Source: Kofleriaceae bacterium
GTDB taxonomy: Bacteria; Myxococcota_A; Polyangia; Haliangiales; Haliangiaceae
Reading direction: 5' to 3'
Assembly: GCA_024762925.1 (NCBI GenBank)
Contig: JANTGM010000028.1
Span: 1-58,881, forward strand
Length of the DNA stretch: 58,881 bases
A program made the translations under genes and the position numbers. Below are positions 872-18,283 of this stretch, in pieces (the stretch's first letter is position 1; each line of letters opens with the position of its first letter). Below the pieces are notes generated by a model that saw only the letters and a list, made by a program, of their open reading frames with translations, had not been told where the DNA came from and did no database searches.

Positions 872-1083
872 GCGTCGGCAAGCTCGGGGTAGTGAGTCCG
901 CAGAGCCTCAACTACCATCTCCTGCATTTCTCGATCTTGCTCCACTGAGAGCAGACGCAACTTGCGGCGAAAGCTCTGAGGTACTCGCAGGGAGATTTTG
1001 ACCTGAGACTCCTCCACGAGGGTCTTGGCGGCTACTTCGACATTCAGCGCAGGGCGCTTGGGTTTCATCTTTGCAAGTTTCAT
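868..1083 (-). CDS. Ribbon-helix-helix (CopG-like) partition/regulatory protein
   Basis: 71 aa. A basic N-terminus is followed by VKISLRVPQSFRRKLRLLSV, the beta-strand plus helix pattern of ribbon-helix-helix DNA-binding proteins, and a second helix (REMQEMVVEALRTHY). The ATG overlaps the parA stop. A small RHH protein directly after parA commonly acts as the centromere-binding ParB equivalent of type Ib systems and represses the operon; that role is inferred from context. The short GC-rich repeats at 1091-1140 and 1851-1892 are candidates for its binding site. Confidence 0.72.
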   Translation of the reverse strand: MKLAKMKPKRPALNVEVAAKTLVEESQVKISLRVPQSFRRKLRLLSVEQDREMQEMVVEALRTHYPELADA

Positions 1084-1814: not shown

Positions 1815-2015
1815 GGCGATTCCTGTTCCCCTACTCGCCATCAGACGGCAGGCCTCCTGGGTTGCCAGCCATCCTGCCCCCTAGCCCCCTGGGAGGCAAG
1901 AAAGCGGCGCAACTTTCATCGGGCAGTTTTTCAACAACAGCCGTCGCGAAACTGTCCTTCATGCCGAAAGCCCGTCATTGCCCCGTACCCTCAACCCCTG
2001 CGACCATCCGAACAG

Positions 2016-2459
2016 ATGAAGCGCCTACAACAGAATGCCTTAAGATGTTTGCCGGCTGCAGGCCGGCGGCCCCTGGTGCTCCTCCTGACATGCAGCTGCA
2101 TGATTTTCTCGGGGACACTGCTTTTTGCCCCAGGAGATGTCCAGAGCTCAGAGCCTCCCCCCCTCCCAGAAGCACTGATCTCCCAGGAAGACGACCCCGT
2201 CGAGCCAGGAAGCGTTCTCCCCGAGAACATTGCGACTGGGCCACTGCTGCCTGCCAGGGAACCTTCTGCCGAATACCAAGATCGGCGCCGAGCATTTGTC
2301 GCTGCCCTAAAAGAGGGGCAGGCAGTCTGGAAAGAGCAAGGGCTCTCAATGGAGGAGCAGAAGCGACTTCGACTCCTCCTGAAGGCCAGTGTATTAGACA
2401 AGCAATCCCCCCTCAGAGACCTCTGGGACCTACTTCCAGCATCCGATGAGGAGCTTTAG
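2016..2459 (+). CDS. Small exported protein, first gene of the metalloprotease operon
   Basis: 147 aa from the ATG at 2016. A basic start is followed by a hydrophobic segment (LVLLLTCSCMIFSGTLLFA), a signal peptide or a single anchor. Next is a Pro/Glu-rich stretch, then a C-terminal helical part (about residues 85-147) rich in Arg, Lys, Glu and Leu. Family not recognised. Its stop is three bases before the ATG of the large metalloprotease gene, so the two are almost surely co-expressed. It might be a chaperone or inhibitor of the protease; this is suggested only by position. Confidence 0.6.
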   Translation: MKRLQQNALRCLPAAGRRPLVLLLTCSCMIFSGTLLFAPGDVQSSEPPPLPEALISQEDDPVEPGSVLPENIATGPLLPAREPSAEYQDRRRAFVAALKEGQAVWKEQGLSMEEQKRLRLLLKASVLDKQSPLRDLWDLLPASDEEL

Positions 2460-2462
2460 GCG

Positions 2463-5400: not shown

Positions 5401-5492
5401 ACTACCTACCAACTTCGTTGCACTTTCAAACAAGTTGCCCAGAGCCAGCATCAATGTCTGAATTCGAATATTGCAATGCGCCACCGCTCTAG
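2463..5492 (+). CDS. Secreted zinc metalloprotease with calcium-binding repeats
   Basis: 1009 aa. A signal peptide (about residues 1-24) is followed by a beta-rich region. Around residues 254-300 are two thrombospondin type 3-like calcium-binding motifs (DADGDGLGDG and DTDGDGISD). Near residue 480 is the zinc site HELGHNLGLTH, which fits HEXXHXXGXXH of the metzincins, followed by a Met-turn-like SLMNYAYDF. The remaining 450 residues look like a beta-propeller or lectin-like domain. It should act outside the cell on proteins or peptides; the substrate cannot be told. It overlaps the next gene by 17 bases. Base composition is visibly less GC-rich than the genes at 10942-15897. Confidence 0.83.
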   Translation: MPRAGIILAGILSIWISHSQTSHAGGGGGPTVIPKYRHHENLGTVATYVASKQVCLAPGASVEFHTGNLSESWADPQMHILRRNASTNQWEEHFFDDDSLDGRNPSISFVTSSSGSACTDFKILVRAHDNPSGGSGGAVFTLFRGLSPLGTYPLGGYVLPDAELVGTTRTIETVRVNEGAAASKIYRFEKRPGEAHHKYRAESTAGGVSPYNTKMSGTIHSGDNGVSTEWVISTPSAETKEGPISVLINDAQEGDADGDGLGDGLEGLYGLMTCSDTSATPVDCSLVADPTDTDGDGISDYHEAIGLDDEFDPLELYRWGANPRHKDIFVEIDRQGYTDPSVDTPYLSEAMLAFAAAKYSSLPAISNPDGLPGINLHFDVAWYCRTEEGFTDNSGDSDNFTHLCGKYGGAGLVGTFPDGTPNAVMGASNMSNVRRDVFHWMRTYAGAQGYAKRDCWASSVGTGGMLGDLDSKKRVAATVAHELGHNLGLTHQGVLSDQTGFNHNPIYPSLMNYAYDFEKDGSIDNVAFSDGSRTCINPLSLSETTPYSAGTNTAFLENEPMNLLVSSTGGVDWNRDGFFDPSVRALLLAPGSHRFGGAEIPLAEGANEVPGATTSITPGAAEFFSSGQNALWLVQSNPLSGVLEYQLRSNSGQWGSPAALGFALFRLDSEPEVIRFTGATGSYLYIFSIEDTATGTVSGYRVDDSGAITPMQFTLPPSGRQLLSVSAASSGNAIYLIGRDANNDQLWINRLDDPLGTATWAGWEDVSGGTQPVQSLGTPALQAGPDGHLFIVYKATQSFLWMKRYDPGLPLSSIWENVSLSNEALWNTHNDDCVMGEGRPGLVYQSHVDGTGAPLPRGNGSFWMWYRSTCSNNETKTFIRQSTGNFDGSGAVAFSMGSFHYTPTPGGQSAGVFDICPAQIDTGVALVATSAGLEAFTPQDTTFSKEGVSCGPDSIVNFPYARGYADINVCDYDDESTIEYYLPTSLHFQTSCPEPASMSEFEYCNAPPL

Positions 5493-6651
5493 ACAGATAC
5501 GATGGAGCATCGCGCTTTGCATGCTTTGTGCGTGTCGTGAGGCGCCAACTCCAGTTACGTCTATAGACGCACAGCCAGAGATTGACAGTTCAGCAGACTG
5601 TTTTATACCTGTTATTCCAGAGCCAGCGTCCACCTGGGCTGTGGATGTGTTGTGGGAGCAGTCGATTACAACCAAGGCAAGTGGCAACGTGGTGGGAATT
5701 ATTCGCACCTCCGATGCAATCATGACCTTCATGACCAACGGAATGGTTAGAACTTCTCTGAGTGGCGAGAATGCAATCGAGTCCTTATACGAAGACGGCA
5801 TATTCTACGAGCGGGTCATCCAAGGCGCCGATAGCGCAGTTGCGCTCATTGGCCCTGAGCTCGGGGAACCAGGACATCGTCTTTGTCACCTGAGCTTGGA
5901 TGGAGCCTTGGATATATCGACCTGTCTTGCGCTCCCCAACTCTCCTCCCATCCCCGCCCCCCCGCGATGGAATGGCAGTGCGTTTCAAGTACTCTCAAGG
6001 CAAAGTGATAACCTGGTGCTACGGGGACTCACCGCAAAGGGACTCGTTGTTGAGGACAAGAAACTAGCTCCGCAACCCGAGGCCTCAAATCTCCATGACG
6101 CGATTCCCTTGGGGGAATCGCAGCAATTCCTAACGATGACAGGCAAGCTCAGTGAGCCCATTTGCTCATCTGCCTGGGGACAGATCTTTCCAGGCAACAG
6201 TGCCCCAAGCAAGCTAAGCCCAAGCAAGAGCAAGGGCGTCAGGCTATGGAAAGCCTACTCGCCCAACGAAGTGTTCCTCTTGCACTCAGCCCTCTGTGTC
6301 CCCGACACAGATCTCTGCACTCGCACAGAAGGAGATGCCTCATTCTTTTCAAGTCGCATCCGCGAAGATGGAACTATCACAACCAAGCCTCTCCCTCAGC
6401 CAGTCTATGGCACGGCCGAGGTAGTCTGGGACGAGCAGTCTTTCGTTGCTGTAACGGCTTCTACGAATCGACTCACAGCATATATTTTTGGGGACGATCA
6501 CACCCCCTTAGAGGGTGTGATTTCGATTCCATCTGCTGATGTGTCAAATCATCCCATCGTGGTAGCCAATGCTCCTCGCGACTTACTGATTGCCTTTAGG
6601 GCGCTGACAGGTGGACATCGTCTAATGCGGATTCAGGTTCGCCCACAATAG
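5476..6651 (+). CDS. Lipoprotein of unknown function in the metalloprotease operon
   Basis: 391 aa. The N-terminus (WSIALCMLCAC) ends in a lipobox-like segment, so the mature protein is probably lipid-anchored at the inner face of the outer membrane or in the periplasm. The rest is beta-rich with Asp/Gly/Ser turns, compatible with a propeller, but no family is recognised. It starts inside the last codons of the metalloprotease gene and ends six bases before the Lnb-like gene. Confidence 0.65.
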   Translation: MRHRSRQIRWSIALCMLCACREAPTPVTSIDAQPEIDSSADCFIPVIPEPASTWAVDVLWEQSITTKASGNVVGIIRTSDAIMTFMTNGMVRTSLSGENAIESLYEDGIFYERVIQGADSAVALIGPELGEPGHRLCHLSLDGALDISTCLALPNSPPIPAPPRWNGSAFQVLSRQSDNLVLRGLTAKGLVVEDKKLAPQPEASNLHDAIPLGESQQFLTMTGKLSEPICSSAWGQIFPGNSAPSKLSPSKSKGVRLWKAYSPNEVFLLHSALCVPDTDLCTRTEGDASFFSSRIREDGTITTKPLPQPVYGTAEVVWDEQSFVAVTASTNRLTAYIFGDDHTPLEGVISIPSADVSNHPIVVANAPRDLLIAFRALTGGHRLMRIQVRPQ

Positions 6652-6657
6652 CCCTTC

Positions 6658-7863
6658 ATGTCTCGTTTCCTGGCCTGGGGCGCATTCTTCCTTTTTCTGC
6701 TACTGCAAGGCGGAAGGGCGAGCGCTGGGAACGAAGGAGCTGAAGCTCGAGTCGTACTCCTGACGATGTCACCAGGAAGCGATAGCGTCTCGCAATTTGG
6801 GCACGCTGAACTTTGCATCGTCAGCTCTACCAGGCGTCGTGGCGATTGCTTCAACTATGGCGTCCCCCTCGACAAGGCCCCGTCATCCTGGGCGATAGCA
6901 CGCGGCGGGCTGATCTATCACGTCCAACGCGAAGCGTTCGATAGGGTTGATAGGCACTACCAATCACAGGGACGAGCAGTCTGGGCTCAGGTTATCCCTG
7001 TCCCCTTGGAAGAAATCCCAGCCCTCCACAAGCAACTCATTCTGGATGCAACCCCTCGTGAATCCGAGTATGAGTATGAGCCTTTTACTGAGAACTGCAC
7101 CACCAGAGTTCGTGACATCTTAGACACTGCATTGCACGGCAGGCTGCGCTTAAGCGCCGAGCTGCCTTCGGCGCTTACGTACAGAGCTGACGCTGCTGGC
7201 GCTGTCCGCGGCAGTGCTTTCGATGCCACTGTAATGGACCTGCTCCTGGGCTCTCGCGGTGACGAAACGCTTACGGAGTGGGAGAGTCTGTATCTTCCCA
7301 GGAGACTGCGTGAGCATCTTGCGTCCAAGCTAGGGCTTGTCCCTCGGCTGCTTCCGTCTGCCGATGTAGCTCTCCTACGGCGAAAGCCCCGCCCTGAAGG
7401 GCAGCGCGGGGGTGCATGGGTTCTGGCCTGCTGTATCGCTTTTGTGGCCCTGCTGTTGCTTGGGCGGCTATGCGCTCGCCTGATCCCGAGTCTCATTGCG
7501 ATACCACTCGGCGTTTCTGGGGCTGCACTATGGTACTTGATTGCATTCGGGACTCATGAGCAGGCTTGGCCCAACTACGCAATACTGGTTCTATGTCCAC
7601 TTGATCTGGTGTTAATCACTTGCGTTCGCGGGATTGGCGTCTGGGTCTTGCGATACTTGGAAATCAGAATTTTTCTCTGTGCCCTCGTCGCAGCTAGCGT
7701 AATCGCGGAGATAGTCTCTCAACCAATTGCAACCGAAGCACTAACTGTCGGCGTAGTCCTATTTTCTGCGCTAAGAGCCGCTCGGAGAGCTTGCTCTCTG
7801 CCGGATAAGGGCCCGCATCAGGGCGACCACCTGAGCGCTAGGGAACCATCCACTGTCAAATAG
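6658..7863 (+). CDS. Lnb/DUF4105-family membrane protein
   Basis: 401 aa with a signal peptide or N-terminal span. The periplasmic domain carries the two conserved parts of the Lnb N-terminal domain (DUF4105): FGHA with His49 and TENCTTRVRDILD with Cys147. In the lipoprotein-modifying Lnb enzymes a His and a Cys of this kind act in moving an acyl chain within lipoproteins. After residue about 245 come four or so membrane spans, with HEQAWPNYAILVLCPLDLVL resembling the C-terminal membrane part of the family. Here it ends a four-gene operon of exported proteins. Acyl transfer on the operon's lipoprotein is a possible but untested role. Confidence 0.75.
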   Translation: MSRFLAWGAFFLFLLLQGGRASAGNEGAEARVVLLTMSPGSDSVSQFGHAELCIVSSTRRRGDCFNYGVPLDKAPSSWAIARGGLIYHVQREAFDRVDRHYQSQGRAVWAQVIPVPLEEIPALHKQLILDATPRESEYEYEPFTENCTTRVRDILDTALHGRLRLSAELPSALTYRADAAGAVRGSAFDATVMDLLLGSRGDETLTEWESLYLPRRLREHLASKLGLVPRLLPSADVALLRRKPRPEGQRGGAWVLACCIAFVALLLLGRLCARLIPSLIAIPLGVSGAALWYLIAFGTHEQAWPNYAILVLCPLDLVLITCVRGIGVWVLRYLEIRIFLCALVAASVIAEIVSQPIATEALTVGVVLFSALRAARRACSLPDKGPHQGDHLSAREPSTVK

Positions 7864-7963
7864 GGTCGCTATCTAAGACACCCCATAAAACACCGAGAAA
7901 CCACCCTTCCTCGCGTTTCAGCGTCCTGCCTTTACATGCCGATTAGCCTATACTCCTGATGGC

Positions 7964-8578
7964 ATGCCACGAGCGAAAGCGAAACCCAAGACCGTAGCCG
8001 CCTACTGTCGCGTCTCAACACGCGACCAGAAGAACGACAGCCAGCGCGCAGAGATCAAGCGCTGGCTTCGTGGTAACGGAATCAAAGCAGCAGACGTCTC
8101 GTGGTTCGAAGACAAGGCAAGCTCGAAGACTCTTGCGCGGCCAGCATTCGAAGAACTGCAGCGCGCCATCTTTGAAGGCACCATCAAAACCGTTGTCGTG
8201 TGGAAGCTCGATCGTATCTCGCGCGGACAGGTCGACGGCATGAACGTTCTCGCCGACTGGTGCGATAAGCGCGTGCGCTTCGTGTCGGTCACGCAGCAGA
8301 TTGACCTGCGCGGCGCCGTTGGTCGCATGCTCGCAAGCGTGCTCTTTGGCTTCGCCGAGATCGAGCTTGAGTATCGCCGCGAGCGACAAGCGGCGGGCAT
8401 TCGCCAGGCGAAGAAGCGTGGTGTTTACAAGGGCCGCAAAGCGGGCACGACGAAAGCGAAACCAGCGCGCGCGCACGAGCTGCGCGACCAAGGCCTTACT
8501 GCGCAGGAGATAGCGAACGCCATGGGCGTGAGCGAGCGTAGTGTGTTTCGCTACCTCGCAGACTTGCACGCGCCCTAA
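7964..8578 (+). CDS. Serine recombinase (resolvase/invertase type)
   Basis: 204 aa. The N-terminal catalytic domain begins AAYCRVSTRDQ, with the active serine at about residue 18, and continues with the conserved Arg segment VVWKLDRISRG and the FAEIELEYRRER helix. The C-terminus (LTAQEIANAMGVSERSVFRYL) is a helix-turn-helix, as in resolvases. The size fits a resolvase or invertase rather than a large serine integrase. A -10-like TATACT sits at 7949-7954. On this element it could resolve multimers or promote integration; no clear paired res repeats were seen in 7864-7963. Confidence 0.9.
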   Translation: MPRAKAKPKTVAAYCRVSTRDQKNDSQRAEIKRWLRGNGIKAADVSWFEDKASSKTLARPAFEELQRAIFEGTIKTVVVWKLDRISRGQVDGMNVLADWCDKRVRFVSVTQQIDLRGAVGRMLASVLFGFAEIELEYRRERQAAGIRQAKKRGVYKGRKAGTTKAKPARAHELRDQGLTAQEIANAMGVSERSVFRYLADLHAP

Positions 8579-8644
8579 TGGGCGTATAGCCGCCTGCGTG
8601 CGCGGGTGATAGCGAGAAGTGCCACAGCATGGCAACATTCACGC

Positions 8645-9322
8645 ATGCATCACCTCATCCTCGTGGTCCTGCTCTCATGCTTTAGTGGCTGCAAGTCCGA
8701 CAAGACGCCAGTGGTGGGGCAAGAACCGCCCTCTCCGCGACCCACCACATCCGACGCACGTGAGCCGATGGCTTCGCCTGTGATGTTAAACTTACTGCCG
8801 CCTGAGCTCGAAGGACTTGCGATTGGCATGAGCGTCGACAGGCTTCGTGCAGCTCGAAAAGCATCTGCCCTCAGGGTGACCTCAGCCCATCACTATCTCG
8901 AGGGCAATGCTCTAACAGGAAACGAGAACAACGACGAGCTAACGACCAAGCTAGACTCCATGAGCAAGCACCGCCGCAAGGTCGAAGCCGCCGACTGGCC
9001 CGGCATGGAAGGCCTGTACTACCTCGAAGAGACTTTCGAGAAATCACCCATCCAGAGAGCCAGCTACATGTTTCGCGACAGCGAGCTGCGAAGAGTCATC
9101 GTCTACTACGCTACTCCCGAGCAGGCCAAAGAGGCTTCACGCATACTGCTAGGCAAAGAATACACTACGAAGAAACGCTGGCTCAGCCCTGCTGGCGATG
9201 GCACTCCCGTTCTCAGTGGTTGGGTGTTTAAAGATCGATACGTCTTGGCAGCCGCTCCAAGCACAAGAGGAATAGACAAGATGGACAACGCAGGCACCCC
9301 AAAAGACGCAGCCCCGAAGTAA
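8645..9322 (+). CDS. Lipoprotein, function unknown
   Basis: 225 aa from the ATG at 8645, chosen because it starts a clean lipoprotein signal (MHHLILVVLLSCFSGCKSDK, lipid-modified Cys at about 16). The mature part is soluble and charged; the segment around LEGLAIGMSVDRLRAARKAS resembles a short repeat seen in many myxobacterial periplasmic proteins, but no family is assigned. It stands alone, 66 bases after the recombinase gene and on the same strand. Confidence 0.62.
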   Translation: MHHLILVVLLSCFSGCKSDKTPVVGQEPPSPRPTTSDAREPMASPVMLNLLPPELEGLAIGMSVDRLRAARKASALRVTSAHHYLEGNALTGNENNDELTTKLDSMSKHRRKVEAADWPGMEGLYYLEETFEKSPIQRASYMFRDSELRRVIVYYATPEQAKEASRILLGKEYTTKKRWLSPAGDGTPVLSGWVFKDRYVLAAAPSTRGIDKMDNAGTPKDAAPK

Positions 9323-9474
9323 ACGAAGCCACGCCTAAGGAGCTGACTCCTCTAGCAATGACGCTCTCTGCGGGCGGGGCTTAGTCGAGACTAGAACACT
9401 CGGAGGTGAACGGGCCAAAGAGGCATATACTCCCAGCCTTTCGCCTACGCTTGCGAAACTCAACCAGGTGCAAG

Positions 9475-9499
9475 GAGCAATAAAGGTACTTTATTGCTC
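9475..9499. terminator. Perfect 11-bp inverted repeat between convergent genes
   Basis: The arms gagcaataaag and ctttattgctc flank a 3-base loop. The hairpin lies between the lipoprotein gene (ending 9322, plus) and the Rpn-like gene (ending 9612, minus), so it is placed to end transcription from either side. It lacks a long T run, so it could instead be a protein-binding palindrome. Confidence 0.45.
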
Positions 9500-9611
9500 A
9501 TAGGAGCGCTCAATCGCAAACCACTCCGCTGCTTGCATGCAGTCGTGAACCTCACATGTTTCGGGCGTGAGAACCACACTCTTGCTCGACGATCGCGGCA
9601 CCTAAGATTTC

Positions 9612-10607
9612 CTAAGAATCATCAAATACGTCACTCAGTGTTTTGGCGATAATGATTCGCTCACTAAGACGGTCGAGCGCCACGTCGTCGGCGCCTTGGA
9701 CTCTGGCGACAACCTCAGCAGAAAGACTCCCAAAGCGCAGGTGCAGCTGCCTTAGCAGGCGCGCACGCCCTTGCTGCTGCCCTTGTCGTAGCCCCTGCTG
9801 AATCAGTCTCTGGCCGGCTGTCTTTGCGACTTCCTCTGCTTCTGGTCCAAAGTGCTTCTGCATAACGTCTCCGAGTTGCTCTTGGTCAAGCTCCGTGTTG
9901 ACCTGCAATAAGTAGCCTAGCACGGTCCTCAGCTCATCAGGGCCGCCTTTTTCCGCGAGGAGTGTTCGCACGGGCTCTTGCCACACCACCCAGAATTCTG
10001 GGTGCATGTCGGTCTTCGTGCCGTGCTTGAGTGCGGCCAAGATGAGCATGGCCCGCGCGGTTAGCTCACGGCGTTTCAGTTCTTCGTCTGGCAGCGTCGA
10101 GAGGTCATCCAGTAGAAAGGAGAAGCTCGGCATGTGCGGCGCCATGGCTTTCGCCAAGTCGGCCGGCAACTCAAAGAGGTCAGCAAACTGGGTCGACCGA
10201 TTCCAGCGACCTTCGCCGTGATAGAGGACGATGGGCACAATGGGCGGTGGCCATTCGGTTCCTCGGTTTCGCATCCAGTCATCCCAAATGCGCGCCATGT
10301 AGATGAGTAGTCGCAGGCTCATGCTCTTGTCGACAGTGCGCTGAGCCTCGAAGACGGTATAGAGAAGCGTTGGATGGTCATCCAGCGTGACGCTGTAGAG
10401 CATGTCCATTTGCCGCAGCTGCAGGTGTGAATCAATCGGCGCCTGCGGCTCGATTGCCAAGGTACTCCAGTCGACCTTCGCGGCAAGCTCGCTCGGCAGC
10501 ACGGCCTTGAGCTCGCCGGCTGCGTGCGCCACATCTCCGAAGCTTCGCTTGATGAGCGCGTCGTGTGGATGCGGAATGCCGTGAGGCTTCTTTGGGTCGT
10601 CGGCCAT
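9612..10607 (-). CDS. Rpn/YhgA-like PD-(D/E)XK nuclease (putative transposase family)
   Basis: 331 aa from the ATG at 10607 (MADDPKKPHGIPHPHDALIK); the frame stays open upstream but that part does not look coding. The start matches the Rpn family (HDALIKRSFGDVAHA, then QMDMLYSVTLDD, and VFEAQRTVDKSM at the catalytic core, then YMARIWDDW). Rpn proteins are DNA endonucleases that promote RecA-independent recombination, often on mobile DNA. The C-terminus has a Gln/Arg-rich helix (LIQQGLRQGQQQGRARLL) usual for this family. Perfect inverted repeats lie upstream (10635-10690). Confidence 0.83.
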   Translation of the reverse strand: MADDPKKPHGIPHPHDALIKRSFGDVAHAAGELKAVLPSELAAKVDWSTLAIEPQAPIDSHLQLRQMDMLYSVTLDDHPTLLYTVFEAQRTVDKSMSLRLLIYMARIWDDWMRNRGTEWPPPIVPIVLYHGEGRWNRSTQFADLFELPADLAKAMAPHMPSFSFLLDDLSTLPDEELKRRELTARAMLILAALKHGTKTDMHPEFWVVWQEPVRTLLAEKGGPDELRTVLGYLLQVNTELDQEQLGDVMQKHFGPEAEEVAKTAGQRLIQQGLRQGQQQGRARLLRQLHLRFGSLSAEVVARVQGADDVALDRLSERIIIAKTLSDVFDDS

Positions 10608-10634
10608 GAGGAAGCGCCAGTATCGGCGGCATGC

Positions 10635-10690
10635 CTCGCCTTGGCAACTTGGCGAGAGATCCGGACGTGCACTCTTTTGGAGTCCGGATC
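10635..10690. promoter_or_regulatory. Two adjacent hairpins upstream of the Rpn-like gene
   Basis: Arms ctcgcc (10635-10640) and ggcgag (10651-10656), then perfect 9-bp arms gatccggac (10658-10666) and gtccggatc (10682-10690). They lie 28 to 83 bases ahead of the Rpn start, in the region between divergent genes, and could be an operator, a transcript hairpin or a cleavage site. Confidence 0.4.
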
Positions 10691-10941
10691 TTCTTCGCGA
10701 AAAGAGGGCCCCGATAAGACCCCAGAAGAACGGTTTTCTTCTTTCTCGAAGAGCATCCCGATATCGCAAGCCGTTGTTTCCTTGCGCAAAACACGACAAA
10801 TGCGCCCGAATTAACGACCTCCCGAAGAAAATCGCCGCATTCCGCGCAACTCACCACGGCTCATCCCGATAAGGCTGGCGAACGAACTGGGAGGCGCATG
10901 CTGCGCGTCTCGGTATTTCTCTTACGAAGGAGATCCGCGCC

Positions 10942-11970
10942 ATGAACGAGACTGTCGAAGTTCTGCCACTGGGCTGGAGCGAATCTGGCGAGCCCGTCTC
11001 CGTTCCTCCGGGCGCAAGCGGCTGGCGCGTGAAGCTGCACCGGCCGGGCGCAAAGAAGCCCGCGCTGGTTCGCGACGCACGCGGCATCCCTACAGTGATT
11101 CCGCTGCAGGCGACGCCAGACGAGTTTCGCGCGGTTGTCGGCGTCGGTGGACGCTATCGCCTTGAGCCGGTGTTTTCCGACGGAAGGTCGATCGCCGATA
11201 GCGAGCCCGCCATCATTATCTTGCAAGAGGAAGAGCCCAAAGAGAAAGCTACGAGCAACCTCGGCAGTAATGATGCGCTCATCCTCAAACTTATCGAGGG
11301 GCACCACGAGAGCATTGCGCGCACGCATGAACTGATGAACGAGATGGTCGCGGACCACCGCGCGCAGGTCACAGCGCTTGCGGAGCAAAACACCAAGCTC
11401 GTCGCGTCTATGGCCGACCGCTTCGGCAGCTACCTCAGCGGTACCGCCAAACTCCTCGAGGCGACGAGCCCGCCACCGCCGCCCGAGCCGCCGCGCAATG
11501 CGCTTGAGACGCTCGGCGACTTTAAGAAGATTCGCGAGCTGTGCGCCGACCTCGGCGAGACCGCTATCACCGGCGAAGCCGAAGCGCCTTACACCGAACT
11601 CGTGACGGAAGGCGTTCGCACCGCCCTCCCCTTGCTCACGCAACTGATTCACAAATGCGTTCTCGGCCTATCGCCCGAGCAAACCGCCGCACTCACCGGC
11701 AGCGACACACCGCCCGCCGAGCAACCAAGCCCTGCCCCAGCGGCCTCGCAGCCGCAAAGCAAAGCCACCACCGATTTCGTCGCACACCTCAACGCTATCG
11801 AGAAGCACCTAACGCCCAACGAAGCCAAAGCGGTGCGCAGCGTTATCGCGACGATGAGCCCGGAGCAAATCAAGACGTGGAAAAGGCGCATCGTCGCTCT
11901 GCCACCCAAAGAAGCCGCCGCGCACATCCGCGAGCGGTTGCACGAAGAGAAGAAGGAGGCCCCCTCATGA
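10942..11970 (+). CDS. First gene of the unknown eight-gene cassette, coiled-coil protein
   Basis: 342 aa with a strong ribosome site (AAGGAG eight bases before the ATG). Residues 1-90 look like a small beta-rich domain (GASGWRVKLHRPG, then VGVGGRYRLEPVFSDGR). Residues about 108-165 form a long helix or coiled coil, followed by a Pro run (PPPPPEPP) and helical C-terminal parts separated by a Pro/Ala/Ser linker. There is no signal or membrane span, so it is probably cytoplasmic or structural. Family not recognised. Its stop overlaps the start of the next gene (ATGA), and all eight cassette genes read the same way. Confidence 0.65.
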   Translation: MNETVEVLPLGWSESGEPVSVPPGASGWRVKLHRPGAKKPALVRDARGIPTVIPLQATPDEFRAVVGVGGRYRLEPVFSDGRSIADSEPAIIILQEEEPKEKATSNLGSNDALILKLIEGHHESIARTHELMNEMVADHRAQVTALAEQNTKLVASMADRFGSYLSGTAKLLEATSPPPPPEPPRNALETLGDFKKIRELCADLGETAITGEAEAPYTELVTEGVRTALPLLTQLIHKCVLGLSPEQTAALTGSDTPPAEQPSPAPAASQPQSKATTDFVAHLNAIEKHLTPNEAKAVRSVIATMSPEQIKTWKRRIVALPPKEAAAHIRERLHEEKKEAPS

Positions 11971-13040
11971 TTGCCGCGCCCGTTAACGATGTCTCCTGCC
12001 TCTCCAGGTTCACCGACGTTGCCAAGCAAGCCACCGAGCGCGCGGAAGTGCAGCAACTCGCAAACCGCTTCCTCGCCCGCAACGCGAGCACCGACGCCGC
12101 TCTCCACGACATGCGTCGGTGGCTACGAAACAAACCGCAACTCAACGACACCGGCCATGGCCCTGAGCCCCGAGTCGATTGCGGCACCGTTCAGCAGCGC
12201 GTCGACTACCTCGGCGACCGTCCCAACTGCTCCGAGCGAACGATTCTCTACTGCGCACTCGGCGAGCACATCGATCCGGACTCCATTCGGCAGATGGCGA
12301 CCATCCGAACACCGGCCGGCCTGCACACCTTTCCGCTGGAGAACGGCGAGCCCGTCGTGCTTGACCCGCGCATGCCTCGCAACGCCCTCCTGCTTGGCGT
12401 CCACGCCATGCGCAACGGCAGCGCTTCCGAGATGCGGCCCCACGAGCTCGTCTCGTTCGCCCTCGACTTAGCCGAAGAGCCCGCACGCCAATACCGCAAC
12501 GGACGCACGCGACTCGACAGCGCCGAAACAGCCTTGCAGCGCGCCTTCCGAGGCGAGCCCGTGGCGCCGTGCCCGAGCCGCTTCCGAAATTCTCTGAGTG
12601 ATATCGCCTGGACGTTTGCCCTTGCCGAGCAAGCCGCCCGCGTCTCTGGCGGCTATGGCCTGGACGCTGTGCGCCTCTCCGCCATGGCCGTGCAATCCAT
12701 GATGGCCGCCCAAGCACGCAACCTCTCCTTTCGCATCGGCGGCCTCAAAGTCGGCGTCGACACCAAGGCCTTGCGCAAAGCGCGCAAGCAAGTCCTGCGC
12801 TCAGCCAAGCAAGTCGCGAAGACCGCAGGCCCACTCGCAGGCCCCGCACTCAAGGCGTACCTACTCACCAATGGCATCCCGCCCCAGGCGGTGGATGCGG
12901 TCGCCGGAAACGTCTTGAAAAGCGCCGGCATCCCTCCGGGTCCACTCGGATTCAGAACCCCCGACGCCGGCAGCCTGAATGCCCTCGCATTCGACACCGC
13001 CGTTCAACAACTCACGAAGACCGCCCTAACGAAAGGATAA
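11967..13040 (+). CDS. Transglutaminase-like protein of the cassette
   Basis: 357 aa from the ATG that overlaps the previous stop; the frame is open further left but only as a shadow. Residues 70-140 show the order of a papain/transglutaminase-fold active site: Cys88 in RPNCSERTILYCAL, His120 in PAGLHTFPLE, and Asp133 in VVLDPRMPRN, the last like the LDPT of that family. It could cleave or cross-link peptides or proteins, such as in peptidoglycan or virion parts. The C-terminal half (about 255-357) is basic and helical with a Gly/Pro-rich hydrophobic patch. The fold is inferred from the triad spacing, not from overall similarity. Confidence 0.6.
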   Translation: MIAAPVNDVSCLSRFTDVAKQATERAEVQQLANRFLARNASTDAALHDMRRWLRNKPQLNDTGHGPEPRVDCGTVQQRVDYLGDRPNCSERTILYCALGEHIDPDSIRQMATIRTPAGLHTFPLENGEPVVLDPRMPRNALLLGVHAMRNGSASEMRPHELVSFALDLAEEPARQYRNGRTRLDSAETALQRAFRGEPVAPCPSRFRNSLSDIAWTFALAEQAARVSGGYGLDAVRLSAMAVQSMMAAQARNLSFRIGGLKVGVDTKALRKARKQVLRSAKQVAKTAGPLAGPALKAYLLTNGIPPQAVDAVAGNVLKSAGIPPGPLGFRTPDAGSLNALAFDTAVQQLTKTALTKG

Positions 13041-13042
13041 CG

Positions 13043-13543
13043 ATGGCAAAGAAACGAGCAGCCGTACAACGAAGAGCACCCGCCCCTCGGGCCCGAGCAC
13101 GCGCGCCGGCCGCGCCTGCACGACGACGACCTGCCAGGCGTAAGAGCAACGTGGCGCTAAAGAACGGCGTTGCCGCTCTTGTCGGCGGAGCGAGTGGCGC
13201 ACTTGCCGGAGGCCTGCTCGTCAAAGCAGGCGTCAAGCCCACCACGGCCGCCGTTGGCGTCACTGTAGCCGGCGCCGTCGGCACGATGACACTCACCGGC
13301 ACAAGCCGCGCCGTCTCGGCGGGCGTTGCCTCTGCAGGCGCTGGGCAACTCGCGCTGGGATGGCTTGCAACGGTGCGCAACGCGCAGCCCGTGCAGGTGC
13401 TTCCACCGCAATTGCCCAACGCGGCCGAGATTGAGCGACTTGATGCAATCGACGTTGACGACATGTTTCGCCAAGCCCGCAACGAATTCCAATACGACGA
13501 CGAAGACGACCACGACTTCGCCTCTGTGGAAGCCGCCGCCTAA
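13043..13543 (+). CDS. Basic membrane protein of the cassette
   Basis: 166 aa, starting two bases after the previous stop. Residues 1-35 are an extreme Arg/Ala/Pro-rich tail, able to bind DNA. Residues about 40-110 are Gly/Ala-rich and hydrophobic with two or three spans (VAALVGGASGALAGGLLVK, TTAAVGVTVAGAVGTMTL). The C-terminus is acidic (YDDEDDHD). A basic head joined to Gly-rich spans recalls minor membrane proteins of lipid-containing or filamentous phages. No family recognised. Confidence 0.6.
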   Translation: MAKKRAAVQRRAPAPRARARAPAAPARRRPARRKSNVALKNGVAALVGGASGALAGGLLVKAGVKPTTAAVGVTVAGAVGTMTLTGTSRAVSAGVASAGAGQLALGWLATVRNAQPVQVLPPQLPNAAEIERLDAIDVDDMFRQARNEFQYDDEDDHDFASVEAAA

Positions 13544-13564
13544 CCCCAAACCAAAGGAAAACGA

Positions 13565-13966
13565 ATGACAGAAATCATTGATGTGGATTTTGACGATGAT
13601 GATGACGACGACGTGTACTACCGGAACGCCCGGCGCCCGGTTCCACGCCGAAGCACAAGACGCAGTACAGGACGTCGGCGCAGCAGTCGCGCCGTCATGG
13701 TCCGCCCGGTCACGACAGCCGAAGCGCCGCAAGCGCGTAGCCCTATCGTGCACAAGTACGGGCAACTGAAGTGGGGACTCATTGCTGACGCAGGTGCAAA
13801 AGCGTTAGCAGCGATTCAACCGCTCCCCGGTGCGCCGACCATGTCGGGCGACGCAACGAAGAACATGCAGAACCTCGCGGACTATCACGAGGCACTCGCA
13901 CAACACGCGAAGCGTAGTCAGCAACTCACAACGCTTGGCTCTATCGCAAAAGTGTTCTTGCCCTAG
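13565..13966 (+). CDS. Small acidic/basic protein of the cassette
   Basis: 133 aa with an AAAGGA ribosome site. It starts with an acidic run (DVDFDDDDDDDVYY), then an Arg-rich stretch (residues about 22-45), then a more ordinary helical C-terminus ending in a short hydrophobic segment (TLGSIAKVFLP). The N-terminal charge pattern mirrors the acidic C-terminus of the preceding protein. Function unknown; a structural or DNA-condensing role is only a guess. Confidence 0.58.
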   Translation: MTEIIDVDFDDDDDDDVYYRNARRPVPRRSTRRSTGRRRSSRAVMVRPVTTAEAPQARSPIVHKYGQLKWGLIADAGAKALAAIQPLPGAPTMSGDATKNMQNLADYHEALAQHAKRSQQLTTLGSIAKVFLP

Positions 13967-14036
13967 GCAAGCACCCGCAGTCGTCGCCTGAGTCGGCGAC
14001 TGCGCCACCCTTTTTTCTAAAACGAACGGAGAGACG

Positions 14037-14306
14037 ATGCCCGAGAGCATGTTTGATTGGTTTCCCTTGCCCGCGATTCGCAAAGCGACCGACGCACCAA
14101 GGCGCGTACTCGCTGATGTACTCGGGTTCCCCGCAACGCCTATCTACGCGACGAGCGACGACGAACCCACGGACGCATGCGAGCCGCGCACGCTCGCCCT
14201 CCCCGCACCAACACCAACGGCGGCGAAAGCAACGACACCGGCAACACGCACGCAGAAGCCGCGCAGCAAGAAGCGTCGACGCAAGACGCGGCGCAGGAGC
14301 CGATAG
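14037..14306 (+). CDS. Small basic protein of the cassette
   Basis: 89 aa, preceded by CGGAGAGACG ahead of the ATG. The first 40 residues are mixed (SMFDWFPLPAIRKATDAPRR), and the protein ends in an Ala/Thr/Pro linker and a Lys/Arg cluster (KKRRRKTRRRSR). Function unknown; the tail would bind nucleic acid or acidic lipid heads. It ends exactly where the next gene starts. Confidence 0.5.
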   Translation: MPESMFDWFPLPAIRKATDAPRRVLADVLGFPATPIYATSDDEPTDACEPRTLALPAPTPTAAKATTPATRTQKPRSKKRRRKTRRRSR

Positions 14307-14948
14307 GTGGACGCGCTTAGCCTTGGCGCGTTCGCGGCCGCCGCACACCCTACCCTCCGGCAAGCGTCAGCAACGAGCGCCATCCCCACGGGCATCATGC
14401 GCGTTCGCAAAGGCGACTTTGTGAGCATGCGCTTTGCCATGCGGGACGCGTTCCTCGAGGCGCGCGGCGTTGACTCGTCGAAGCAAGACGGCGTCGCCGC
14501 ACCGAAGACGACGAACGAAGATGCGCGCGCAATCGCCCGCTACTGGTCCGAAGCCTTGCAACGCTTTGGCAAAGGCGTTGGTGGCGCATGGCCACGCGAC
14601 TGGCGCACGTACGCAAAACGCGTTCAGTCGCAAACCGCTGGCAGGCCTAAGGCACAAACCTACTCAGAAAATTACCAACTCTGGCGCGAGGTCACGAAGC
14701 TTGCGATTCACCTCAATTCCATCCGCGGCGCACGCCCGAGCGAGTGGAGTTACGCATGGGAAGCGCTCAAAGAGTCCGCCGCCGAGCTCCCAGAGAATCT
14801 CGCCAGCGCCGGCCAAGCCATTGGCCGCGTGGCCGTCTCGCCAATCGCTGGCGCCGCCAAGGGGCTTGGCCTCGATACGAAGACGGTGCTCACCGGTGTT
14901 GTTATCGCGACCATCTCAGCGGTCGTTATCTCGAAGGTGCTTCCATGA
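14307..14948 (+). CDS. Tail-anchored protein of the cassette
   Basis: 213 aa starting at a GTG that directly follows the previous TAG. The body is soluble and Ala/Arg-rich; Trp/Tyr-containing helices lie at residues about 75-155. The last 25 residues are one membrane span (TVLTGVVIATISAVVISKVL), so it is a C-terminally anchored protein. Family not recognised. Its TGA overlaps the ATG of the hydrolase gene. Confidence 0.57.
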   Translation: MDALSLGAFAAAAHPTLRQASATSAIPTGIMRVRKGDFVSMRFAMRDAFLEARGVDSSKQDGVAAPKTTNEDARAIARYWSEALQRFGKGVGGAWPRDWRTYAKRVQSQTAGRPKAQTYSENYQLWREVTKLAIHLNSIRGARPSEWSYAWEALKESAAELPENLASAGQAIGRVAVSPIAGAAKGLGLDTKTVLTGVVIATISAVVISKVLP

Positions 14949-15583
14949 ACGACCGCGACACATTACTACTCGGTGGCCTCGCCCTTGTCGGACTCGGCGG
15001 CATTGCCTACGCGACTTCACGCAAGCCAAGCGGCGAATCACCAAGAACCACCGAGACGCCGAAGCAACTCGGCGGCACGAAACGACGCAAAAGCCGCCGC
15101 ATAGGAAGTGGCCCCTACTGGGCGCAAACCGGCTCTACGACGCGAACTGACGATATCGAAACCCTCGCACGGGTCATCACATCCGAGGCCGGCTCGCAGA
15201 GCCTGGCCGAGAAGCAGGCTATCGCCTGGGTTGCGCGGAACAAGTCAGTCGTGCGCCGCACGCCATTGGTAAAGTTCTTAGGACAACCATTCGGCAAGCA
15301 AGGCGCGCGCATGGCAAATGGCAAGCGCCGCACGTTCTCAACACGACAAGCGGCCACACCCGCAAGTCGCGAAATCGCCACGCAGGTGCTGAATGCGCCG
15401 CAATCGGCAGATCCAACACAGTCCGCAACGTCGGCCTTTGAGCCGAAGCTACAAGACAGGCTCTTCAACAAAAAACGGTACCGACGAAACGCCGAGATGC
15501 TCCGCGCCGAATGGCACGAGGGCGGCGGCCACCGCGTCGGACGGATAGGGAGATGGGAACTATGGGCACAACGAGCCAGATAG
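14945..15583 (+). CDS. Membrane-anchored SleB-like peptidoglycan hydrolase
   Basis: 212 aa from the ATG overlapping the previous stop; a longer open frame exists but is a shadow. Residues 8-25 are one hydrophobic span (LLLGGLALVGLGGIAYA), followed by a basic linker. From residue about 68 the segment IETLARVITSEAGSQSLAEKQAIAWVARNK fits the start of the SleB/cell-wall hydrolase family, including its catalytic Glu in the SEAG/AEA position. The domain then continues to the end. It probably cuts the glycan strands of peptidoglycan during entry, exit or secretion through the wall. Confidence 0.68.
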   Translation: MNDRDTLLLGGLALVGLGGIAYATSRKPSGESPRTTETPKQLGGTKRRKSRRIGSGPYWAQTGSTTRTDDIETLARVITSEAGSQSLAEKQAIAWVARNKSVVRRTPLVKFLGQPFGKQGARMANGKRRTFSTRQAATPASREIATQVLNAPQSADPTQSATSAFEPKLQDRLFNKKRYRRNAEMLRAEWHEGGGHRVGRIGRWELWAQRAR

Positions 15584-15897
15584 ACGATGCAATCGCGGTC
15601 GTACGAGCCGCATTCGAAGACGGAGCGACGGAATCGACGATGAAACAGGGCGCTCAGGTGCTCGAAACGATGCTTTCGTCGCTTCAGGGCGCCATAGACG
15701 CCCAGAACACGCCCGAACCTGAGCCGGAAACGGCTCAGAAGGCCGATCTGCCGCCGAAACCGGCAAAATCGCCGGGCCCAGACCTGCTCGATTACGTGAT
15801 CGGGGTGCTAAAATCGCAACTCGACGAGGACGATCGAAGCGCGGTCGACCTCGCTTCCGGCGAAGCCGGATTCTCGGTGCCGTTCATCCAGGTCTAG
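15562..15897 (+). CDS. Small acidic protein, last gene of the cassette
   Basis: 111 aa from the ATG at 15562, after a GGGAG ribosome site inside the end of the hydrolase gene; ATGs at 15511 and 15553 are possible. It is helical at the start (QIDDAIAVVRAAFEDG), has a Pro/Glu/Lys linker in the middle, and ends in an acidic helix. Function unknown; its overlap ties it to the hydrolase gene. Confidence 0.55.
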   Translation: MGTTSQIDDAIAVVRAAFEDGATESTMKQGAQVLETMLSSLQGAIDAQNTPEPEPETAQKADLPPKPAKSPGPDLLDYVIGVLKSQLDEDDRSAVDLASGEAGFSVPFIQV

Positions 15898-16221
15898 GGC
15901 GTGTTTGGCTGAAAACCGGCGCCCGTCAAAACTCCGTTCTAAGCGGCGCTTGCTGCTAGGGTCACCGGAGTGCGAAATAGAGAGATCTGACGTGTTAGCG
16001 GTGAGTTTTGGGGCCTTACAACGAGTGCTATCGGCGTTCGGTCGACCCCGAGGAACTCTGCCCGTCAGCAGACGGGCCACTTCGAGGTTTCGAGACGCGA
16101 ACGATGAAGCGGGCAGAAGGCGAGGTTTGGCTAAGATGTCGACGGTGTTTTGGTCAGACCTAACCGAGTTGCTGTTTTACAGCTGCCGGCGATTAGCCGG
16201 TCCACGTTCTTCGAGAGGGGT
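15898..16221. other. Non-coding stretch between the cassette and the origin
   Basis: No open frame here has a credible start or protein-like composition. The DNA leads into the hairpin cluster of the replication origin. I see no promoter or RNA gene that I can support. Confidence 0.4.
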
Positions 16222-16376
16222 GTCGGGGATGCTTCCCCGACCGGGGGTGGAACGGGGGCAGAGCCCCCTCACCTGTGGCGCCGGTTAGGCGCCTCCATGT
16301 GTTCCAAGTGCGAGCGGTTTTCGTGGGGGTGACGGGGGCGTGAGCCCCTGTCCGGGGTGTAAGGGGCAGAGCCCCT
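16222..16376. repeat. Cluster of hairpins beside the origin
   Basis: Five short palindromes follow one another: gtcgggga/tccccgac (16222-16241), gggggc/gccccc (16254-16268), ggcgcc twice near 16280-16295, ggggc/gcccc (16335-16348) and aggggc/gcccct (16362-16376). Three share the form ggggc-loop-gcccc. They may form structures used in replication or termination. Confidence 0.6.
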
Positions 16377-16430
16377 CGGGAGCACATAAAGAACTTAAGA
16401 GTACTAAAGAGTACATAGCGATTTTTTCTC

Positions 16431-16439
16431 TGTGGATAA
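16431..16439 (-). promoter_or_regulatory. Consensus DnaA box in an AT-rich patch
   Basis: TGTGGATAA on the plus strand is the exact complement of the DnaA consensus TTATCCACA. It sits just right of an AT-rich stretch (16381-16430) that also has an agagtac direct repeat, and 55 bases left of the iterons. A palindrome caactagttg lies at 16462-16471. Confidence 0.75.
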
Positions 16440-16493
16440 AACCCGGAAAGACGAATAGTTACAACTAGTTGCGGCGGGGCCAGATTGGTCAGG

Positions 16494-16620
16494 CTTCCCC
16501 TAGCTCCCGGGCTTCCTTCCCCTAGCTCCCGGGCTTCCTTCCCCTAGCTCGCGGGCTTCTTCCCCTAGCTCCCGGGCTCGCTTCCCCTAGCTCCCGGGCT
16601 CGCTTCCCCTAGCTCCCGAG
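16494..16620. repeat. Six iterons, likely replication origin of the element
   Basis: The 18-base core cttcccctagctcccggg starts at 16494, 16516, 16538, 16559, 16581 and 16603, a period of 22, 22, 21, 22 and 22 bases, about two helical turns. The third copy has one change (cgcggg) and the last ends in cgag. Each unit holds a CTAG. Regular iterons next to a DnaA box, an AT-rich stretch and a rep gene define an iteron-controlled origin; the Rep protein at 16656-17456 should bind them. Confidence 0.85.
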
Positions 16621-16655
16621 ATCTTTGAGGGGCAATCACACCAGCAAAAACGCAC

Positions 16656-17456
16656 CTAAACATCAACCCCGGGGAGGCTCATCTGTGGCGCAGAGCGCTC
16701 CGCCTCAAGGATAAAATCCTTCCTATCTGCAGCCTCTCGGAGCGACACGCGAAGCTTGTATTTCTCGCCCACGATCGGCTTACCGCTGAGCCTCTCAAGC
16801 GAGGGAAGTACCTTCTCCTTGCGCTTGCTCTTGTAGCGGTAGGTAGCCATCCCAAGCTCTGCGAGCAGCGTCTCTAGGCGGATGTGATAGCGGTCCTTCC
16901 CAGCCAGCTCATGATCTAGCTTTGCGTAGAGCAGCGGCGCCAATGTCGACCGTCGGCCGCCCCTAGCCACTCGGCCTCCTGGCCCCCCAGCCCCCTGGCC
17001 CCTTGTTTGATTCTCGCGATCTGTAGCGCTTAGTTCGAGATATGGCGTCAGGAGCAGCTGCTTCACGCGCTTGCGAAGGAACTGCTCAGTCACGAACGGA
17101 GAGAACGAAACGGTCACCTCTGCACGCCCGCCAGGCCGAGGAAGCATCGTCTCCTCGTCAACATTCTCAGCCACCCAGGTGGCGCCGTCGACGAGCGTGA
17201 AGTTCACGCGATCAACCTTCCCTTGCCAGCTGTACGCCTGGCTCCGCTGAATCGGAATCCCTGACAGGTCGGCCAGCAGCCGACTGGCTCGACTGTATGC
17301 CTTGGCCGAATCGTCCCCAATGAGAGCCATAACCAGCTCGTACTGGGACATCTTCAGCACGCCCATTGTCGCCTTATCGGTCTCCAGAGCGTAGCCCTGC
17401 TCGTCCCACAGCTTCAGCAGCTTGTACCAGCACTCCTGATGCTCCTGCTTGAGCAC
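16656..17456 (-). CDS. Plasmid replication initiator (Rep, winged-helix type), 5' end possibly lost
   Basis: 266 aa from a GTG at 17456. Two winged-helix-like halves are visible: residues about 1-120 (with MSQYELVMALIGDDSAKAYSRASRLLADLSGI) and about 125-255, as in iteron-binding initiators. Between them a Gly/Arg-rich insert (RGQGAGGPGGRVARGG) is encoded by a short GC-rich repeat also found in parA. The frame has a stop shortly upstream, and the MITE-like repeat begins about 15 bases beyond the start, with no room for a normal promoter, so the N-terminus and control region may have been cut off at integration. Iterons lie just past its stop. Assignment rests on context as much as on sequence. 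Confidence 0.65.
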   Translation of the reverse strand: MLKQEHQECWYKLLKLWDEQGYALETDKATMGVLKMSQYELVMALIGDDSAKAYSRASRLLADLSGIPIQRSQAYSWQGKVDRVNFTLVDGATWVAENVDEETMLPRPGGRAEVTVSFSPFVTEQFLRKRVKQLLLTPYLELSATDRENQTRGQGAGGPGGRVARGGRRSTLAPLLYAKLDHELAGKDRYHIRLETLLAELGMATYRYKSKRKEKVLPSLERLSGKPIVGEKYKLRVSLREAADRKDFILEAERSAPQMSLPGVDV

Positions 17457-17471
17457 ACCGCGATGGGAGTT

Positions 17472-17599
17472 CGTTCACTGGCAAGGCGTGAACAACGAGC
17501 TTGCCGGGACAAGTGAGGCGCTGAGCAACGCTGAGCCGAAGGCGTCCAGAGCGCGAAGAACCGAGCCAGGGCGTTCTATGCCTCTGGATCCCACACTAG
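17472..17599. mobile_element. MITE-like repeat, right flank of the plasmid-like element
   Basis: About 128 bases matching the left part of the block at 58497-58881 (the stretch around gcgctgagcaacgc and aaggcgtccagagcgcgaag is nearly identical), then a diverged right end finishing in cactag (CTAG at 17596-17599). The TAA stop of the adjacent minus-strand gene touches this CTAG. On the left the repeat comes within 15 bases of the rep start. Confidence 0.7.
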
Positions 17600-18283
17600 T
17601 TATCGAACGACCGAGTCCAAGACGAGGGACAAGCCATCCACAGGAATCGCGCCACGCACCCGTCCCTCGATATCACCAGGCTCAACGCTGCTTGCTTCGC
17701 CATCGTGATCCACACGAGCGTAGACTTCGACGTCGCCTGAGAACTCGGTTCCTGCCACCATAGAGTTGGCGCCACTCAGGTGAAAGTCAACCGGAAGAGT
17801 TCTTACATCGATTCTCTCGACTGCCAACGGTTGCCCGAGAATATCCCCGGTCACCTTGTTGATTGGCCGCACGGAGAGAAAGATGATTGCGCCTGCCTTG
17901 ATGAGGGGCGCGGTCTCAGAATTGCTCGCAATGCTGCCCGCAACAAACTGCTTTGGGTCGACAACCCGATTGGGGTCGGGTGCCATGAGCCCACCGGGGT
18001 TCTCGCCACCACTCATATCGAGGCCGGCGTGCGGATCGGCGCCCGCTCCCATGTCCAGTCCTGCATGCGGATCGCCAGCTCCGCCTATATCGAGCCCTGC
18101 GTGCGGATCGCCAGCCCCTCCCATATCCAGACCTGCGTGCGGGTCGCCAGACATCGTCGGGGCGGTCCCAACCACCGTCCCCGAACTCCAAGAATTTGCG
18201 ACAGGAAGTGATGCAGCGGGGTCGTCCTTCTTGTCCTCGCCACAAGATGCAAGGATTGCGAGAGCCATGAGGTAGCGAAACAT
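17600..18283 (-). CDS. Lipoprotein with DPHAGLDMG repeats and a CcmI/CycH-like C-terminal domain
   Basis: 227 aa. The lipoprotein signal is short (MFRYLMALAILASCGEDKK). Residues about 45-95 hold four 12-residue repeats of the type GDPHAGLDMGGA, each with one His and two Asp, so weak metal binding is conceivable. The C-terminal 110 residues (LFLSVRP-like start, then LPVDFHLSGANSMV, EVYARVDHDG, LSLVLDSVV) follow the pattern of the C-terminal domain of the cytochrome c maturation factor CcmI/CycH, which binds apocytochrome. Here it is free of the TPR part. Stands alone; the stop abuts the repeat element. Confidence 0.65.
   Translation of the reverse strand: MFRYLMALAILASCGEDKKDDPAASLPVANSWSSGTVVGTAPTMSGDPHAGLDMGGAGDPHAGLDIGGAGDPHAGLDMGAGADPHAGLDMSGGENPGGLMAPDPNRVVDPKQFVAGSIASNSETAPLIKAGAIIFLSVRPINKVTGDILGQPLAVERIDVRTLPVDFHLSGANSMVAGTEFSGDVEVYARVDHDGEASSVEPGDIEGRVRGAIPVDGLSLVLDSVVR

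Follow-up and report, generated by a model that had tools for sequence, protein, structure and literature searches.

An eight-gene cassette at positions 10942-15897 of a 58,881-nucleotide stretch of Kofleriaceae bacterium DNA (the whole stretch is hereafter called the window; it is part of contig C28 in an assembly of 6.8 Mb, the relatives of which are Myxococcota) may represent the virion module of integrated myxobacterial mobile elements that resemble small lipid-containing phages or their satellites, a reading to which we assign a probability of roughly 0.55. The multi-spanning product of gene 3 and the C-tail-anchored product of gene 6 would then reside in a lipid membrane, with the products of gene 1 (Ig-like domain, coiled coil and helical tail) and gene 4 serving as assembly or scaffold parts. 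Gene 7 would provide a wall hydrolase, anchored in the membrane, for breaching the peptidoglycan during entry or exit, and gene 2 a transglutaminase-fold maturation protease that cuts itself and other proteins in linkers at R-N-[A/G/S]. In the window, par, rep and iterons would maintain the element as a plasmid-like replicon, and in relatives tRNA-directed integrases would do so; anti-phage and toxin cargo would pay for its upkeep. The cassette is composed of the following genes:

Gene 1, 10942-11970, + strand: Ig/FN3-like N-terminal beta domain, long helix, disordered linker and C-terminal helical domain; homologues in about 37 loci.
Gene 2, 11967-13040, + strand: transglutaminase-fold cysteine protease candidate with C88/H120/D133, from alignment and AlphaFold.
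Gene 3, 13043-13543, + strand: basic N-terminus and Gly-rich hydrophobic spans; a family of about 33 with a hydropathy peak.
Gene 4, 13565-13966, + strand: acidic N-terminus with R-N-A at residue 20; conserved C-terminal helical domain.
Gene 5, 14037-14306, + strand: small protein with a very basic C-terminus, matched to relatives by position.
Gene 6, 14307-14948 (GTG start), + strand: helical repeat domain and C-terminal membrane anchor, with a hydropathy peak at 194-212 (alignment A3).
Gene 7, 14945-15583, + strand: N-anchored SleB-like wall hydrolase candidate; the slot holds M23 or SLT in relatives.
Gene 8, 15553-15897, + strand: small helical protein; start inferred.

All eight open reading frames (ORFs) are intact and tightly packed on the + strand, with 4-bp overlaps between genes 1 and 2 and between genes 6 and 7, and the arrangement thus agrees with the overlapping or near-touching one-way cassette of the initial annotation. 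The same annotation had described a coiled-coil protein, a Cys-His-Asp protein, a small protein with Gly-rich membrane spans, a C-tail-anchored protein and an N-anchored hydrolase; these descriptions hold, with a long helix in gene 1, the Cys-His-Asp residues in gene 2, Gly-rich hydrophobic spans in gene 3 and hydrophobic anchors at the C-terminus of gene 6 and the N-terminus of gene 7. Codon statistics give strong support for genes 1, 2 and 6, and weak support for the small genes. Homologues in the same order confirm genes 1, 2, 3, 4 and 6, with genes 5 and 8 matched by position and loose similarity. Judged from start codons and the N-termini of relatives, gene 8 probably starts at 15553 or 15562 and not at 15511. 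None of the eight window proteins matched Pfam or PHROGs at a meaningful score, the seven that were also scanned against NCBIfam had no match there, and the profiles of genes 1 and 2 matched no Protein Data Bank (PDB) sequence.

The cassette is a conserved set. Of 30 genomes from the same family, about 17 contain relatives of gene 2, a single genome having as many as 12 matches, and one genome from another family of the order contains them too. A profile search of GTDB genomes returned about 40 loci, a number by which the set exceeds chance, and all of these are in deltaproteobacterial or Myxococcales assemblies, some named Kofleriaceae. In the 20 loci that were fetched, the order gene 1, gene 2, an extra gene of about 150 aa, genes 3 to 6, one or more hydrolases and gene 8 is preserved to the extent that the contigs cover it; the extra gene between genes 2 and 3 is absent from the window copy. 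Further copies are found as fragments on other contigs of the source genome. The two outcomes that had been named at the outset as counting against a distinct module, homology to a described module and poor conservation in relatives, were both not seen, the set being well conserved and matching no described module. The mobile family appears to be undescribed in the searchable literature, where no described Kofleriaceae element was found. A second, distant element type was observed in another myxobacterial family (L094:8521-15247 and L095), where the operon, next to a serine integrase, has retained a coiled coil, a transglutaminase-like core, a C-tail anchor and an N-anchored lysin, and also carries a CBM5/12 spike-like protein.

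In gene 2, residues C88, H120 and D133 are invariant in 19 of 19 sequences of alignment A1; in alignment A4, C88 is found in all 33 sequences that have a residue at that position, and H120 and D133 in 35 of 35. In the AlphaFold model (predicted local distance difference test score, pLDDT, of 83), C88 opens a helix spanning residues 88-102, H120 lies in a following strand (118-125), and D133 comes just after it. The closest PDB neighbours by VIA-align are 3kd4 (Z 8.4), 3isr (Z 7.7, root-mean-square deviation 2.8 over 117 aligned residues) and LapG (Z 7.1), and the top nine rows, with Z from 8.4 to 5.8, are all transglutaminase-like cysteine proteases, a transglutaminase-like protein and endoisopeptidases. 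Foldseek E-values are weak, such that the fold call is at the edge of the reliability of the tool and depends on the top rows and the triad agreeing with each other. With both triad and fold in place, gene 2 is predicted to encode a candidate transglutaminase-fold cysteine protease. The likeness to LapG-type transglutaminase-like cysteine proteases extends to predicted fold and Cys-His-Asp triad, but gene 2 has no Pfam membership and is encoded in a mobile operon.

Comparison of the gene 2 model with viral models (BFVD) returned as first match I1ZBG7, a protein of 304 aa (probability 1.00, E 0.097). The same length is found for gp34 of SSIP-1, a membrane-containing tailless phage with two types of major capsid protein (PMC6356626). 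SSIP-1 gp34 is annotated as a structural protein, shows the motifs DCDGMS...DHVYVV...LDPT, and directly follows the 420-aa coiled-coil gene gp33. The position of gene 1 in the cassette mirrors that of gp33, in that a coiled-coil gene stands directly ahead of a gene for a transglutaminase-fold protein in both. SSIP-1 is also alike in possessing several small C-tail-anchored proteins, a membrane-anchored transglycosylase-like protein (gp54) and an annotated integrase. However, SSIP-1 has its two capsid protein types, an annotated ATPase (gp40) and a 44-kb genome, whereas no capsid or ATPase is recognised in the cassette, and sequence similarity between the two is not detectable. As an observation on SSIP-1 (L123) itself, gp39, gp52 and gp54 share an AGF motif just ahead of their C-terminal anchors, perhaps a signal of SSIP-1's own.

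Among the remaining cassette proteins, a structural model was obtained for the gene 1 homologue of L046, which consists of an FN3/Ig-like domain, a long helix (residues 107-145) and a helical tail, with an FN3-like protein as best structural match (Z 4.6). No jelly roll was seen for gene 1, either in this model or by structure comparison. The hydrolase slot of gene 7 is occupied by M23 peptidases or SLT transglycosylases in relatives, with membrane anchoring kept. The SleB-like label that gene 7 had initially been given finds no Pfam support; its sole sequence support is a relative in L080 (39% identity), in which the SEAG...EK motif is conserved. Membrane proteins together with a membrane-anchored lysin, a combination expected of membrane-containing tailless phages of the Vinavirales/SSIP-1 type, are predicted from sequence for the cassette. 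In L032:5117-6190 and L073:14384-15301, an M23 domain appears to be followed by a GIY-YIG-like C-terminal part, with an RN-A or RN-G linker in between.

The short motif R-N-A recurs throughout the operon proteins. In 187 non-redundant proteins it was observed 113 times, as compared to 12.9 in shuffles, an excess of about tenfold that reaches at least 3-fold in seven of the eight protein families and is only twofold in other ORFs of the same loci. The motif was first noticed on loci L021-L040, and the new loci serve as a hold-out, in which 45 occurrences were found against 4.6 expected, a count that none of 1000 shuffles reached. No enrichment was evident for the permutations ANR, RAN and NRA or for the variant KNA. 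The motif occurs 81 times in the coding frame versus 3, 3 and 4 times otherwise, and its codon choice is normal; R-N-A is therefore a protein-level signal, and an origin as a DNA motif or codon effect was rejected. RN[AGS] falls within residues 5-20 of nearly all gene 4 homologues, and R-N-A mostly at residues 11-33 of gene 3, the termini of both proteins being otherwise variable; in gene 1, gene 6 and the M23 fusions it is found between domains. The simplest reading is that of a candidate processing signal for the gene 2 protease. The transglutaminase fold spans proteases and transferases, and R-N-A is also present within structured parts of gene 2, as might be the case if the motif were a docking or cross-linking signal and gene 2 acted as a transglutaminase-like ligase. 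This alternative is considered unlikely, as R-N-A is mostly positioned as cut sites would be, in the termini and linkers of genes 3, 4, 1 and 6 and between the M23 and GIY-YIG-like parts.

The carriers of the cassette in relatives are mobile. An integrase adjoins a tRNA gene in 8 of 12 relative loci that were examined, and three relative elements of 27-31 kb are closed by a repeat of the tRNA 3' end:

G014:C214, about 27.5 kb: tRNA-end repeat of 22 bp, exact.
G004:C303, about 31 kb: tRNA-end repeat of 45 bp, exact.
G013:C59, about 27 kb: tRNA-end repeat of 45 bp with one mismatch.

Other genes of the element family encode an AlpA/HTH_17 excisionase-like protein, an IrrE-like (ImmA/IrrE) peptidase and a sigma-like factor. 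Loci of the family, closed elements and others taken together, carry defence cargo such as a type I restriction enzyme, a ThsB-like TIR protein, a caspase, ShosA, PDC-M54A and PDC-M09B; in unclosed loci, some of the cargo may lie outside the element. Defence genes in or beside elements were noted at L118:9274-10697, L120:4153-12725, L064:3683-8470 and L078:7502-8932, with ShosA accompanied by a PRTase-like partner. Polymorphic toxin candidates with eCIS_core, LHH and WHH/colicin-DNase domains were noted at L035:4-1391, L119:11006-11974 and L061:238-3987.

Such toxin candidates sit inside two of the elements closed by attachment (att) repeats, and one operon includes a SUKH immunity-family protein. 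Together with the fact that the hosts are from a predatory group of soil bacteria, this cargo is what might be expected of a domesticated or element-borne contact or killing device, in which the anchored hydrolase and membrane proteins deliver the cargo toxins to neighbours. We regard such a device as improbable, since the carriers are still integrase-borne with att sites, the copies are many and diverse, and the cargo varies between elements. In addition, the operon shows no Walker A motif, and none of its proteins matched a Pfam family of relaxases, coupling proteins or secretion ATPases. A contact or secretion device was one of several identities offered by the initial annotation; the lack of relaxase, secretion or conjugation families leaves that part without backing, whereas its suggestion of a virus-plasmid hybrid fits the window copy.

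The main rival of the virion-module reading is a helper-dependent satellite of an unseen tailless membrane phage, which would make membrane, spike, lysin and maturation parts and borrow the major capsid protein and packaging ATPase. Satellites typically have an integrase, an excisionase-like gene, tRNA att sites and defence cargo (PMC11389934), PICI, PICMI and tycheposons being likewise endowed with tRNA att sites, a tyrosine integrase, an AlpA-like excisionase and defence cargo, and the lack of a recognised capsid or ATPase in the operon would be accounted for. The combination of integrase and att repeats is present in three relatives; the window copy differs. Nevertheless, no helper has been seen, and tailed-phage satellites carry helper-related genes (PMC12324425), of which none was recognised here. 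The known satellites also differ in that no terminase, capsid or capsid-redirecting gene is recognised in the present family, which has membrane, hydrolase and protease genes of its own, the latter two being unusual in satellites. A satellite is a rather unlikely explanation on present evidence.

Several observations weigh against the cassette being a virion module. No capsid or packaging family was found by Pfam or PHROGs in 85 relatives or in the window, and the Walker A signature of a packaging ATPase (GxxxxGK[ST]) is absent from all 93 operon proteins. Structural models cover gene 1 (the L046 homologue) and gene 2 only, the capsid search otherwise being by sequence families, and the other proteins may hide a capsid fold; gene 1, the only clearly beta-containing protein besides gene 2, has no jelly roll. 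The initial annotation had likewise recognised neither capsid nor packaging ATPase in a set of genes that it likened to those of lipid-containing phages, and a lipid-phage-like module of this kind on a plasmid-type backbone is what was observed. No relatives of gene 2 were found among 50,697 phages, 72,556 plasmids and 2.9 million viral contigs (IMG/VR), nor of genes 1 and 6 among phage records, though free viruses might have given some in these collections. The link between gene 2 and SSIP-1 is structural and has a weak E-value; I1ZBG7 is equated with gp34 by equal length and not by sequence, and a profile comparison of gene 2 with the single gp34 sequence found nothing, gp34 alone being too thin for the purpose. 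Finally, the R-N-A excess is evidence of selection rather than of cleavage, and some R-N-A sites of gene 2 (around residue 181) are inside a predicted helix.

Pleomorphic archaeal viruses (Pleolipoviridae-like, such as Geoglobus acetivorans pleomorphic virus 1) are alike in being small integrating elements, with virions in the form of vesicles that bear a spike as well as a membrane protein. A transglutaminase-like protein related to gp34 is also encoded by the Geoglobus virus (E 1e-3; TGM in PMC10919331), but its gene stands apart from the VP3 and VP4 genes. Neither a VP4-like fusogen nor a VP3-like membrane protein of Pleolipoviridae was recognised in the cassette by Pfam or PHROGs family match, and the present elements differ further in their bacterial hosts and wall hydrolases. 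Charybdis elements (PMC12324425) are similarly virus-like and integrating, with structural and accessory modules and no hallmark gene, but are of 4.6 kb, have archaeal hosts, a marine origin and predicted spike folds, and encode different proteins. A more specific proposal, that of a new kind of bacterial virus-like element forming a capsid-less lipid particle, with proteins matured by a transglutaminase-fold protease at R-N-A, and spreading defence and toxin cargo among predatory myxobacteria as a plasmid or through tRNA integration, is offered tentatively, as a possibility on the doubtful side.

In the window, the cassette is carried by a plasmid-like insertion with the following features:

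542-17458, strand not applicable: plasmid-like insertion of about 16.9 kb with the cassette; CGCG at both ends (538-541 and 17459-17462).
336-541, strand not applicable: left half of a split dispersed repeat of about 346 bp; about 50 matches in genome G000.
17459-17602, strand not applicable: right half of the same repeat; about 38 matches in G000.
1080-1841, - strand: ParA partition ATPase (Pfam AAA_31 2.4e-21, CbiA 1.9e-14).
491-1083, - strand: two small genes downstream of parA, at 868-1083 (ribbon-helix-helix-like) and 491-871.
7964-8578, + strand: serine resolvase/invertase (Pfam Resolvase 5.7e-33).
16494-16624, + strand: six iteron-like repeats of 21-22 bp with the core CTTCCCCTAGCTC.
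16656-17456, - strand: replication initiator (rep) candidate, with a weak Pfam RPA match (E 0.047).

The repeat is uninterrupted at G000 C1:204899-205244 and C76:22259-22572. Positions 3-332 of the window encode the C-terminus of a kinase, the homologue of which in the same-genus genome G001 is directly followed by a homologue of the gene at 17600. Because the flanks are halves of a repeat that is contiguous on C1 and C76, and the kinase and 17600 genes are adjacent in G001, the region 542-17458 is recognised as an insertion of about 16.9 kb. With the ends joined, parA, the two small genes and rep share one direction in plasmid fashion, and the gene at 491-871 would cross the junction and end 42 bases past it, an arrangement suggestive of an insertion derived from a circle. 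The dispersed repeat, matched dozens of times in the genome, is the target of the insertion, and its right half gave no Rfam match. A conserved link between rep and the cassette, for which the initial annotation had proposed a co-occurrence search, was rejected: in 56 genomes, rep has a single clear relative, and gene 2 was not found in the genome concerned (G039); most relatives use tRNA-directed integrases instead. Two further passengers of the insertion, at 2463-7863, are an Lnb-like membrane protein and a reprolysin-like metalloprotease. Inside the 17600-18283 gene, 36-bp tandem repeats are present at 18015-18150.

If the virion-module reading is true, the cassette would mark an abundant lineage of membrane-virus-like elements in these bacteria, with up to 12 gene 2 matches in a single genome; for lack of hallmark genes, such elements would go unnoticed in virus catalogues. 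The lineage would provide a testable maturation system with a common cut signal, and would be a carrier of bacterial immunity. The question of the capsid is informative both ways: the element would turn out to be a bacterial virus without a capsid, or else the satellite of a membrane phage not yet seen.

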